Part shown: positions 14,798-30,931 of the stretch, in pieces
Numbering within the stretch: position 1 is the first letter of the stretch
How the letters are laid out: every line of letters starts with the position of its first letter
Assembly (NCBI GenBank): GCA_014764515.1
Contig: JACXWD010000001.1
Coordinates: 1 to 64,000 of the forward strand
Direction of reading: 5' to 3'
Source: Candidatus Polarisedimenticola svalbardensis
GTDB lineage: Bacteria; Acidobacteriota; Polarisedimenticolia; Polarisedimenticolales; Polarisedimenticolaceae
DNA length: 64,000 nucleotides
Notes under the pieces: model-generated
What the model was told of the DNA's origin: nothing
The model's input: only the letters and a program-made list of their open reading frames with translations
The model's database searches: none
Made by a program: the position numbers and the translations under genes

Positions 14798-15423
14798 TGC
14801 AGGAGCCCCTCCCCGCCGCCTTCCAGCAGATCGGCCAGCGGCCGCACATCCAGTCCGTCCGGCGGCCGGCCTGTTCCGATGTCGGCGGTTCGCTCAGGCG
14901 ACAGGGTCCGGACCGTAAGGCGGGTCAGCTCCAGGAGTGCGTCTCCCGAACCGACGTGAAGCCGGATCGGCAGGCGGTCTGATGCGGTGGCGTCCCGGCG
15001 CCAGACGGTGAGTCCCGGCGGGCGCGTTCCACCAGTCAACGCCGAGACCGTCTCTTCCAGTGTCATGGAAACGCCCAGCACAGGAGAAAGCTCAAGGCCG
15101 GCAGCCTCACCGGCGAAGGCGATCTTGTCCTGAACCAGGGAAACCGCCAACAGGCCGTAACCACCGTCTACCGCCAGGCGGGTTCCGCCCATGGGGCCGA
15201 ACACCTCCACGTGGAGCCGGTCCGGTGGAACGGCCCAGACCCAGGCCCGGAAGCGGGTGGTCTCCCCGTCGGCGATTGTGAATCGGCCCTGGTACAGGGC
15301 GGACCAGGAGTGTCCTTCAGGGATGGCGCCGGTACCGGCTCCCCTGCCGGCGCATGCAACCAAGAGCAGGCAGAGCAGAGCCGGGAACGCCAGGCGCAGC
15401 GCAAGCCGGCCCGGGGAAGTCAT
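14794..15423 (-). CDS. LolB-like outer membrane lipoprotein
   Basis: 209 residues with a signal peptide ending in the lipobox LLLVACAG (lipid-modified Cys about 24). The body looks like a LolB/DUF4292-type beta-sandwich: an early YQGRFTIADGETTRFRAWVW strand pair, then GPMGGTRLAVDGG. LolB inserts lipoproteins into the outer membrane. The assignment leans partly on context: lolB-ispE-prs is the gene order in gammaproteobacteria, and here the order is the same, with spoVG and tRNA-Gln inserted. Confidence 0.6.
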   Translation of the reverse strand: MTSPGRLALRLAFPALLCLLLVACAGRGAGTGAIPEGHSWSALYQGRFTIADGETTRFRAWVWAVPPDRLHVEVFGPMGGTRLAVDGGYGLLAVSLVQDKIAFAGEAAGLELSPVLGVSMTLEETVSALTGGTRPPGLTVWRRDATASDRLPIRLHVGSGDALLELTRLTVRTLSPERTADIGTGRPPDGLDVRPLADLLEGGGEGLLQ

Positions 15424-17384
15424 GGCGTGTCGCTGCCCCCGTTACCCTGCAGTGCGGCGATCTTGGCCTGCAGTTCTTTCTGGCTGGCCGGGTCGGCCTT
15501 GAGGGCGGAGCGATACGAGGCCAGGGCCGATTCGGCCAGGCCCAGTTTTTCGTAGAGGTCCCCGAGGTGTTCCAGGATCACAGGGTCGCCGGGAATGGCG
15601 GCAACGGCCCGCTCCAGCGGATCCCGGGCCTCTTCGTAGGATCCCATGCGGAAGTGGGCCCAGCCCAGGGAGTCCAGGTAGGCGGCGTTCCAGGGATCGA
15701 GCTTCACGGCCCGCTGGATGAATCCGAGAGCCTCGGGAAGGCGGATATTCCGGTCGGCCATGGAATATCCCAGATGGTTCAGCGCCGCGTGGAACTCCGG
15801 GTCGAGGCGGATCGCCTCCAGCAGCTCCTTCTCCATCTGGCGGAAATTTTCCAGCCGTTCCAGGTACTGGCCCAGACGGTAGCGGGCCACCGGGTTGCCC
15901 GGCTCTTCGTCTCTCCAGTCCTTGAGGACCTCTTCTCCCCCATCCGGATCCCCACCCCGGTACAGGGCGTCGGCGGCGATGGGCCAGACCGTATTCCCCA
16001 TGTACCGGGCTGCATCGTTGAACTGCTTCCGGGCCCGGGTGGTGTCGCCCTGGGCGGCACGGATCTCCGCTTCCAGTCTCACGCCGGCGCCGTTCCCCGC
16101 AGCTCGCTTGAGACGCTGGGAAAACTCGAGGGCCTCGTCATAATCTTCGATGACCAGTGCAACCCGGCCGGCAAGTGCAAGCGCATCGATGGACGCCGGA
16201 TTTTCAAGGGTGGCCAATGTTTCCCGGGCTCGTTCCGGCTCACCTCTTGACAGCCAGAGGAAGACCATGCTCTGCCGCAGACCATCCCGGCGGGCCGCCT
16301 CGGTGGCGTCGTCGGTCAGGAGCAGAAGGGCCCGCTCGTAAGCCGCTATCGCCTCAAGATCCCGTGCCTGAACCGCCAGCATCTCTCCCAGCAGGGCCTG
16401 GACGCCATGGTGTGCCGGGAACTCCTCCGCCAGCCCTGTGGCCAGTTCCACCGCTTCGGCGCTTCGGCCCAGGGTGTGGTAAACGGTAGCCAACTGGTAA
16501 CGGAGCATCGGGTCGGCGCCGGCCAGGTCGATGGCCATCTCCATCTGCTTTCCCGCTTCTTCCGGACGGCCGACCCTGAGAAGGGCCTCACCGTACAGCG
16601 CCCTCAGGCTGCCGACCTGGGGACGGACGGCCAGTAGAGGTTCGGCGCGATCAATGAATAGAAGCCAGGCGTTGCGGCTGCGCACCAGGTTGTCCAGAAG
16701 GCTGACGGCGTCACGGAACCCGACGCCTCCTTCGTCCAGGCCGGCGGTCTCCCGCAGGAACCGGACGACCTCTTCGATCGCTTCTTCATCCCGGTCGGCG
16801 TGCATAAGGACGTTGGCCAGCAGGCGGAGCGCTTCGGCGTCCCCTTCCTGCCTTGCGACGAACCGGCGGGCCGCTTCGATGGCGCCGTCGGCATCGCCGG
16901 CCCTGAGCCTGAAAGTGGCCAGGAGCCGGAACGATTCCGGATCGGCCTCCGGCTGCAGGATCAGGCGGTCGTAGATGGTAATCGCCTCGGCCAGTGCGCC
17001 GTCGGCAGACCTGCCGCCAAGAATCCGGGCGGTCAGAATCTCGGCCAGAATTTCCAGGGAGCCGACATGATCCGGATCGGCCTTGAGGGACTGGCGTACC
17101 AGGCGCTCGGCCTGCTGCTGCTGACCCATGAGCATCAACAGGGAGGCGGCTTCCGTTTTGAGATCGCTGGACGTCGGGTCCAGCTTCACCGCCTCGTTGA
17201 TCTCCCGCACCGCCTGTCCGACCTGGCCCTGCCGCGCCACGTACAACGCCTTCATCATGTGGTAGTAGGCGTCGCCCTGCCGGGCTACATCCGGCTCGAG
17301 TTCATCGGCCCCTGCGGCCGGCGTCAAGACCAGAGCGGCCAGGATGAGGGCCGAAAACAGCCGGTGCTTCCTGTTCAATCTCAA
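15420..17384 (-). CDS. TPR-repeat periplasmic protein
   Basis: 654 residues with a signal peptide (FSALILAALVLTPAAGA) followed by a nearly continuous array of tetratricopeptide repeats. Examples are VGQAVREINEAVKLDPTSSD, EAGKQMEMAIDLAGADPM and the best-preserved last copies FRQMEKELLEAIRLDPEF, EALGFIQRAVKLDPWN, EARDPLERAVAAIPGDP. TPR proteins serve as assembly scaffolds. Its 3' end overlaps the LolB-like gene by 4 bases and its 5' end the S41 gene by 4, so it may act with them in outer-membrane lipoprotein or cell-wall work. The partner is not known. Confidence 0.85.
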   Translation of the reverse strand: MRLNRKHRLFSALILAALVLTPAAGADELEPDVARQGDAYYHMMKALYVARQGQVGQAVREINEAVKLDPTSSDLKTEAASLLMLMGQQQQAERLVRQSLKADPDHVGSLEILAEILTARILGGRSADGALAEAITIYDRLILQPEADPESFRLLATFRLRAGDADGAIEAARRFVARQEGDAEALRLLANVLMHADRDEEAIEEVVRFLRETAGLDEGGVGFRDAVSLLDNLVRSRNAWLLFIDRAEPLLAVRPQVGSLRALYGEALLRVGRPEEAGKQMEMAIDLAGADPMLRYQLATVYHTLGRSAEAVELATGLAEEFPAHHGVQALLGEMLAVQARDLEAIAAYERALLLLTDDATEAARRDGLRQSMVFLWLSRGEPERARETLATLENPASIDALALAGRVALVIEDYDEALEFSQRLKRAAGNGAGVRLEAEIRAAQGDTTRARKQFNDAARYMGNTVWPIAADALYRGGDPDGGEEVLKDWRDEEPGNPVARYRLGQYLERLENFRQMEKELLEAIRLDPEFHAALNHLGYSMADRNIRLPEALGFIQRAVKLDPWNAAYLDSLGWAHFRMGSYEEARDPLERAVAAIPGDPVILEHLGDLYEKLGLAESALASYRSALKADPASQKELQAKIAALQGNGGSDTP

Positions 17385-29448: not shown

Positions 29449-29970
29449 ATGCGTAGAGTCTGCGGCTGGTGCAAAGACAATCTGGACCCGGAACTGGGAC
29501 ACGAAGCGGATGCACCGGTCACCCACGGCATTTGCTCATCGTGCGCCCTAAAGATCACCACCGGCACATCCCGTTCGGCCCGGGAGATGCTGGACCTGGT
29601 GGAGGAGCCGGTTTTCCTCCTTGGCGAGGACGGTGTGCTCCACGCCGTCAACCGCAGCGGCTGCCGGCTGGTAGGCAAGGATGCTGACAGTATCGCCGAT
29701 CAACTGCTGGGGGATGTGTTCGAATGCGTCAACGCCGGGCTTCCCGGCGGCTGCGGTGCGAGCATCCACTGCAGCATGTGCACCATGCGAACCACCCTGC
29801 TTGAAACGCTGAAAACCGGAAAAGGAACCTCCTGTCTTCCGGCAACCAAGAACATCAACGCACCGGATGGCGAGCGGGAAGTGCACTTCCTCATTTCCAC
29901 GGAGAAGGTGGACGGGAAGATCCTGATGCGGATTGAAGCTGTGGAACCGGCGGAGCAGGCCAACAACTGA
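29449..29970 (+). CDS. Cys-rich PAS-like sensor protein
   Basis: 173 residues. The N-terminus has a C4 zinc-knuckle pattern (Cys5, Cys8, Cys29, Cys32: CGWC ... ICSSC). Residues about 45-165 look like a PAS domain (EMLDLVEEPVFLLGEDGVLH, then the GKILMRIEAVE end). A second cysteine set is embedded in it: Cys93, Cys102, Cys108, Cys111 and Cys129 (ECVNAGLPGGCGASIHCSMC). This combination occurs in small PAS proteins of anaerobes and suggests a metal- or thiol-based redox sensor, though no output domain is visible. TGATG overlap with the selenoprotein start. Confidence 0.8.
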   Translation: MRRVCGWCKDNLDPELGHEADAPVTHGICSSCALKITTGTSRSAREMLDLVEEPVFLLGEDGVLHAVNRSGCRLVGKDADSIADQLLGDVFECVNAGLPGGCGASIHCSMCTMRTTLLETLKTGKGTSCLPATKNINAPDGEREVHFLISTEKVDGKILMRIEAVEPAEQANN

Positions 29971-30497
29971 TGGCTTACATACCATATCTCGACGAAGAAG
30001 AGATCCCAGAAGACTGCCGGGTTCCGGACTCGGACCACATTCTGCGGGTCCATGGCGTCAACGGCCCGGTCATGAAACAGCACTACGACCTGTACCGTGT
30101 CCTGATGTACGGAAAATCTCCGCTGACCCGGATCCAGCGTGAGATGGTGGCGGTGACGGTTTCCGCCGTCAACGAATGCCACTACTGACTGCACCATCAC
30201 GGGGCGGGGCTCCGCAGGTTACTGACGGCAAAGAAGGTTCCCGAGAGCAGGCAGGACCGGCTCCTCCTGGACCTTGGCTCCGATCACGCCCTGGCCGACA
30301 TCGATGCCGTCAATCATGCCATACTGGATTACGCACGGAAACTGACCCGCACCCCGGCCGCCATGGGGCCGGAAGATGTTGAGCTCCTCAAGGGACACGG
30401 CCTCAGCGACAGGGCGATTCACGATCTGTGCGCCGTCACCTCGTACTTTGCTTTCGTGAACCGCATCGCCGACGGCCTGGGTGTTGAGCTGGAGTGA
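29970..30497 (+). CDS. AhpD-like selenoprotein (in-frame UGA read as selenocysteine)
   Basis: An apparent 72-residue gene stops at TGA (30186-30188), but the same frame continues for 102 more codons and completes a textbook AhpD-like/peroxidase-related protein of 175 residues. Before the TGA: EMVAVTVSAVNECHY; after it: LHHHGAGLRRLL, then RTPAAMGPEDVELLKGHGLS, DRAIHDLCAVTSYFAFVNRI and DGLGVELE. Family members have CxxC followed by HH; here it is Cys70-His-Tyr-Sec73. A SECIS-like hairpin lies just downstream. The likely role is thiol-dependent reduction of hydroperoxides or a related thiol oxidoreductase. It overlaps the PAS-like gene (1 base) and the BP74-like gene (GTGA). Confidence 0.88.
30193..30219 (+). 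promoter_or_regulatory. bacterial SECIS-like hairpin
   Basis: Upper stem CGGGGC (30200-30205) pairs with GCTCCG (30209-30214, one G-U) around a GGG triloop; a lower stem ACC/GGT (30193-30195 with 30217-30219) closes an AUCA/CA internal loop. The apical loop begins 18 bases after the UGA and contains G, which fits the usual bacterial SECIS distance and loop rules. Confidence 0.65.
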
Positions 30498-30931
30498 TCT
30501 TGAAACGGTCGACGATCCTGAAGCTTGCGATGGTCCCGATGGTCGCCTGCCTCCTGTTCTGCAGCAGCAACAACTCCCCCACCGCTCCACCTCAACGCTC
30601 CTTCCTGTTCGCCATGCGGGGTATCCCGGACGCCGAAGGCCGGTTCGTTGCCGTGACCTCCAACCCACAGCTGCTTGCCGTTCTGGAAGGCCAGCTCGCT
30701 CTACCGGAAGCGCAGCGCAACCTCCACATCAACGGCCCGGTCGATTCCGGCAACGGCGGCCACAACCTGGGCTGGTCCTGGCATTTCGAGCCCGGCCAAT
30801 GGGAACTGGTGGAGATCAGCATCGAACTGTGCGATGGCCGGCCACAAAACGTGGAGGACGACGTGGACAAGTGGATCGCAGATGTAGGCACGTTCTGCCC
30901 CTGGGCGTCGTATGTCGCAGCGGAGCTTTAA
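30494..30931 (+). CDS. BP74-like domain lipoprotein
   Basis: 145 residues from a GTG overlapping the selenoprotein stop; a TTG at 30500 is an alternative. A signal ends in LLFCSS, a likely lipobox. The mature part matches the BP74-related domain known from Dictyostelium and scattered bacteria: FVAVTSNPQLLAVLEGQLAL, HNLGWSWHFEPGQW, ELCDGRPQNVEDDVDKW and FCPWASYV. The role in bacteria is unknown. Coupling to the selenoprotein hints at a shared stress task. Confidence 0.7.
   Translation: MILKRSTILKLAMVPMVACLLFCSSNNSPTAPPQRSFLFAMRGIPDAEGRFVAVTSNPQLLAVLEGQLALPEAQRNLHINGPVDSGNGGHNLGWSWHFEPGQWELVEISIELCDGRPQNVEDDVDKWIADVGTFCPWASYVAAEL

Follow-up and report, generated by a model that had tools for sequence, protein, structure and literature searches.

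The gene at positions 29970–30497 of the window (the whole stretch of DNA analysed here, 64,000 nucleotides from Candidatus Polarisedimenticola svalbardensis) is almost certainly a selenoprotein gene that only seems to be broken by a stop codon, because the UGA found there would be read as selenocysteine (Sec). The bacterium's own SelB and tRNA-Sec(UCA), directed by a hairpin, are predicted to decode UGA-73 and thereby produce the complete AhpD-like enzyme, whose active site reads Cys70-His-Tyr-Sec73. The case for Sec insertion is made up of the reading frame, homology that continues past the UGA, the genome's Sec machinery, and selection on the hairpin; there is strong support for insertion at UGA-73 by SelB and tRNA-Sec with the hairpin downstream, about as much as sequence alone can give. 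The reading of the initial annotation is thereby upheld, and the one point to correct is how novel the gene is: it is an additional member of a catalogued selenoprotein family, the CxxU AhpD-like proteins, on record since 2005, and not a system of a new kind.

The features of the locus, all on the forward strand, are as follows:
29449–29970, upstream open reading frame (ORF), 173 aa, Cys-rich, with weak sub-threshold PAS-like matches only
29970–30497, predicted AhpD-like (peroxidase-related, CMD fold) selenoprotein gene, 175 aa with UGA-73 read through, terminal UGA at 30495–30497
30177–30188, active-site codons C70-H71-Y72-U73 (TGC CAC TAC TGA), with the putative Sec codon UGA at 30186–30188
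30193–30219, entire hairpin, its weak lower stem set off by an internal loop (ACC 30193–30195 with GGU 30217–30219); 33-nt fold, −9.7 kcal/mol
30200–30214, upper stem-loop of the candidate bacterial SECIS (bSECIS), CGGGGC 30200–30205 with GCUCCG 30209–30214, loop GGG 30206–30208

Reading frame and homology across the UGA

Translated with genetic code table 11, the ORF that starts at the ATG at 29970 is stopped by the UGA at 30186–30188 after 72 aa, the short stub that the initial annotation expected from a standard gene call. With TGA taken as Sec, a 175-aa frame with C70-H-Y-U73 runs through to the UGA at 30495–30497. The initial annotation had placed the in-frame UGA where AhpD/CMD proteins have the second Cys of CxxC and had taken the codons past it to continue the family to a normal C-terminus; the UGA does align with that Cys, and homology spans it. 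The UGA-spanning protein matches the CMD domain (PF02627) and, in the family search that had been proposed as a check, exceeds the cut-off of the NCBIfam model TIGR01926 ‘peroxidase-related enzyme’ (106.6 vs 81.8 bits) over residues 24–172, with the UGA inside the match. The solved Cys-containing proteins 2pfx, 3c1l, 2oyo, 2prr, and 6k40 also align with the read-through protein across the UGA (for 2pfx, residues 23–169 with an E-value of 8e-25). The AlphaFold model of the read-through protein has a pLDDT of 95, and its top fold matches are 2pfx, 3c1l, 2oyo, and 2prr (TMq 0.82–0.86). Among 34 homologs, E58, C70, Y72, C/U73, H76, H77, and the motif YFAFVNRI are invariant, and the E-x11-C-x2-C/U-x3-H catalytic hairpin within the all-helical CMD fold is present in the window protein as E58, C70, U73, and H77.

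Selenocysteine machinery of the genome

All four genes whose presence the initial annotation had suggested checking are found in the genome that contains the window: selA (484.6 bits), a full-length selB (326 bits), selD (365.8 bits, with an in-frame UGA of its own), and selC, a tRNA-Sec with the anticodon UCA (73.3 bits in Rfam, with ARAGORN in agreement). UGA is recoded in some bacteria, and on such general grounds UGA-73 might be read as a different residue, either because the code has changed throughout the genome (for instance UGA = Trp) or by suppressor read-through. We reject this reading as exceedingly improbable, because UGA serves as a stop nearby (the selenoprotein gene itself and the ORF before it both end in UGA), the alternative letter at the site is Cys and never Trp, and tRNA-Sec(UCA) and SelB are present.

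The same genome holds further in-frame UGA codons. The selD gene (L064; C54, around 14872–15810) itself encodes a selenoprotein (...CAGUASKMG...). Its immediate neighbor on the opposite strand codes for an AhpC/TSA-family protein (PF00578; 102 bits once U is replaced by C) that has an in-frame UGA at the U of GYWUPFC and is likely a peroxiredoxin-like selenoprotein. A second AhpD-like selenoprotein candidate (L098; G000:C11:110–622, reverse strand) has an in-frame UGA in a CGYU site; with C for U, it reaches 86.7 bits against TIGR01926 and 76.0 bits against a YciW-related (seleno)protein model.

A hairpin under selection downstream of the UGA

Published constraints on bSECIS elements specify a loop of 3–9 nt, an upper stem of 4–16 bp, a G in the first two loop positions, a distance of 16–37 nt from the UGA, and a minimum free energy of at most −7.5 (PMC13188914). 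Applied by hand, they all hold for the window's hairpin, which has an upper stem of 6 bp, a GGG loop, a 17-nt spacer between the UGA and the loop (the loop begins at the 18th nucleotide past the UGA), and a folding energy of −9.7 kcal/mol. The proposal in the initial annotation that the hairpin at 30193–30219 fits a bSECIS is thus sustained, and the synonymous sites of the region are under selection, as detailed below. An Rfam scan of the locus gave no SECIS-like match, which is not evidence against a SECIS.

Folding energy was uninformative. The stability of the hairpin does not exceed that of shuffled sequences (z = −0.53 in a 33-nt window), a competing fold beats it in a 50-nt window, and energies under dinucleotide or synonymous shuffles do not separate UGA genes from Cys genes. 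We therefore used a pair-specific, codon-aware test, in which synonymous codons were shuffled according to each gene's own usage, with the hairpin region excluded from the usage table. In 45 of the 65 UGA genes, the five core pairs (+12/+26 to +16/+22) all form, against an expectation of 7.7 ± 2.5, and 53 of the 65 have a stem of 6 bp or more whose 3–7 nt loop lies at +15 to +24, against 13.5 ± 3.1; as the sequences are related, these standard deviations from shuffling understate the uncertainty. Every one of the 53 genes with such a stem has G in the first two loop bases; in the remaining 12 of the 65, the tested position holds no simple stem that long. Among the ten Cys homologs, by contrast, none forms all five core pairs (0.3 expected) and two have a stem of at least 6 bp (1.5 expected).

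The UGA members are mostly 40–60 per cent identical to the window protein and spread over phyla. Among the compensatory changes are those from GGAG/CTCC to GAAG/CTTC in two sequences (L010 and L013) and to GCAG/CTGC in four (L084, L087, L089, and L090). When the partner strand is slid, standard pairs fall from 97 per cent to 36–61 per cent in a set of 28 sequences, which were picked by hand and mostly pair; the unselected counts are those given above for the 65 UGA genes. We regard the codon-aware test on the 65 UGA genes as decisive evidence that the hairpin is not a chance feature and that its stem is kept beyond the needs of the protein by selection at synonymous sites; the homology across the UGA is decisive as well.

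In three sequences (L077, L078, and L041), the SECIS stem is rebuilt at about +12 to +30 past the UGA from another sequence and in another register (CCGGCGC GGUCU GCGUCGG).

Conservation of the UGA and exchange of Sec for Cys

In a scan of GTDB genomes, 42 loci cover the site, and all but one have TGA there (41/42; the exception, L019, has TGT). These loci come from at least nine phyla: Acidobacteriota, Planctomycetota, Gemmatimonadota, Chloroflexota, Calditrichota, Fidelibacterota, Eiseniibacteriota, Synergistota, and SAR324. Once relatives of the window's genome are added, UGA occupies 65 of 75 aligned sites and Cys the other 10, where the 65 include the window's own gene as well as two sequences (L040 and L072) that are the same protein. 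The initial annotation had named close relatives with a real stop and no conserved downstream part as grounds for giving up its reading; the relatives retain both the UGA and the part downstream of it.

The 72-aa stub obtained with table 11 is also what a true stop would yield, either in a nonsense pseudogene or through a sequencing error in an AhpD gene with a Cys codon (TGC or TGT), and MAG assemblies do contain errors. We reject these possibilities, to which we assign hardly any probability, because the same codon is kept as UGA in 64 other sequences across phyla, the downstream hairpin is selected and is missing in Cys homologs, and the Sec machinery is present in the genome. The frame, moreover, has no other stop, and the C-terminal half is strongly conserved.

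In the phylogenetic tree, the clade that holds the window's gene has 37 members, of which 36 have Sec and one has Cys. The Cys protein, L019, falls within this clade, and because some forks of the tree are weakly supported we place it no more finely than that. A second Cys protein (L094_1686) is nested in a Sec subclade, and the remaining Cys proteins fall outside the Sec groups. Neither selA nor a SelB above the cut-off was found in the source genomes of L019 and L094_1686, where the best tRNA-Sec matches are a tRNA-Ser and a tRNA-Leu according to ARAGORN, leaving no recognised tRNA-Sec. The hairpin is broken in both genes. Among 60 relatives, selA is present in all 23 genomes with UGA versions. 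In the scan, 37 UGA-bearing genomes were tested for SelB, which exceeds its cut-off in 34, is fragmentary in two, and is not found in one (L030). Two UGA-bearing MAGs (L030 and L031) are without complete selA and SelB, gaps that probably reflect the incompleteness of these MAGs.

Proposed chemistry of the enzyme

By analogy with the family, Glu58, Cys70, Sec73, and His77 would form the AhpD proton-relay site. The Sec73 selenolate would reduce a hydroperoxide or a similar electrophile, Cys70 would resolve Sec73 as a selenenyl-sulfide, and a thiol partner would re-reduce the latter. The relay residues of Mycobacterium tuberculosis AhpD (Glu118, Cys130, Cys133, and His137) match the spacing of E58, C70, U73, and H77 in the window protein, and Tyr50 of Pseudomonas aeruginosa PA0269, an AhpD-like protein with weak measured reduction of H2O2, corresponds to Tyr72 (PMC3141380). 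Overall similarity of the window protein to these two proteins is low (22 per cent over 149 columns for PA0269). The peroxidase activity of the nearest solved structures, like the function of the TIGR01926 group, is assigned by annotation.

The protein could also be a selenoprotein that acts on another electrophile (e.g. by reductive dehalogenation, as does Bmp8, a debrominase with the AhpD fold) or in thiol-disulfide exchange. The fold matches include Bmp8 (6ohj, TMq 0.76), the function of the TIGR01926 group is, as noted, an annotated one, and no gene for a peroxiredoxin partner is linked to the locus. Yet the closer matches in both sequence and fold are peroxidase-related and AhpD proteins, the geometry of the E-x11-C-x2-U-x3-H relay equals that of AhpD, and H2O2 reduction, if weak, was measured in the AhpD-like PA0269 (PMC3141380). 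We therefore consider a non-peroxidase function unlikely. A more specific conjecture, that the CHYU branch is widespread and almost always Sec-bearing, needs Sec for a non-peroxide reaction (reductive dehalogenation or the reduction of some other electrophile), and reverts to Cys only when a genome loses Sec decoding, appears to us less likely still. Peroxidase chemistry is the reading we favor by analogy.

Genomic neighborhood

The stop codon UGA of the upstream 173-aa ORF shares one base with the ATG of the selenoprotein gene (TGATG). This overlap suggests possible translational coupling in the window's genome only, and no relative of the ORF was found beside the gene at other loci. More generally, no conserved neighbor or operon partner was detected within about 3.5 kb in related loci, many of which are short. 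Directly downstream of the selenoprotein gene, at 30494–30931 on the forward strand, is a gene whose product has a BP74 N-terminal domain (PF23621, E-value 3e-24) and a lipoprotein-like N-terminus. No viral homologs were found.

Relationship to known proteins and significance

A CxxU AhpD-like protein (COG2128) was represented by 27 sequences in the Sargasso Sea set in 2005 (PMC1088965), and AhpD-like 1 and 2 were abundant in an ocean survey of 2008 (GOS set; 299 and 70 sequences; PMC2398784). TIGR01926 with CxxU forms a row in a 2026 table of prokaryotic selenoprotein families (PMC13188914, Table 1). The window protein resembles this family in scoring over the cut-off of the domain model, in having the presumed Sec at the second position of CxxU, and in the bacterial SECIS immediately downstream. 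Nothing fundamental sets it apart: it has CHYU and belongs to a widespread, mostly Sec-bearing clade. With the Cys-containing peroxidase-related and AhpD proteins of known structure (2PFX, 3C1L, 2OYO, 2PRR, and 6K40) it shares the fold and the CxxC active-site hairpin, but these have Cys in place of Sec and are 25–31 per cent identical to it in structural alignment. The window protein has no known link to AhpC. Two further families of CMD/AhpD-domain selenoproteins with CxxU differ from it at the subfamily level. It scores 49.6 bits on NF041238 (AhpD_rel_CFYUT), far under the cut-off of 175, and has no match to NF041047 (GSU3128 family, a distant AhpD homolog) at an E-value of 0.001, and hence belongs to another subfamily than those.

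Recognition of the gene puts right an annotation that would list no more than a stub of 72 residues, and the subgroup with the rebuilt stem (L077, L078, and L041) is a natural set for studies of covariation between SelB and SECIS. More broadly, comparison across the family demonstrates Sec insertion in bacteria cleanly, through selection on the hairpin beyond the needs of the protein and through reversion to Cys that goes together with the loss of the Sec machinery.
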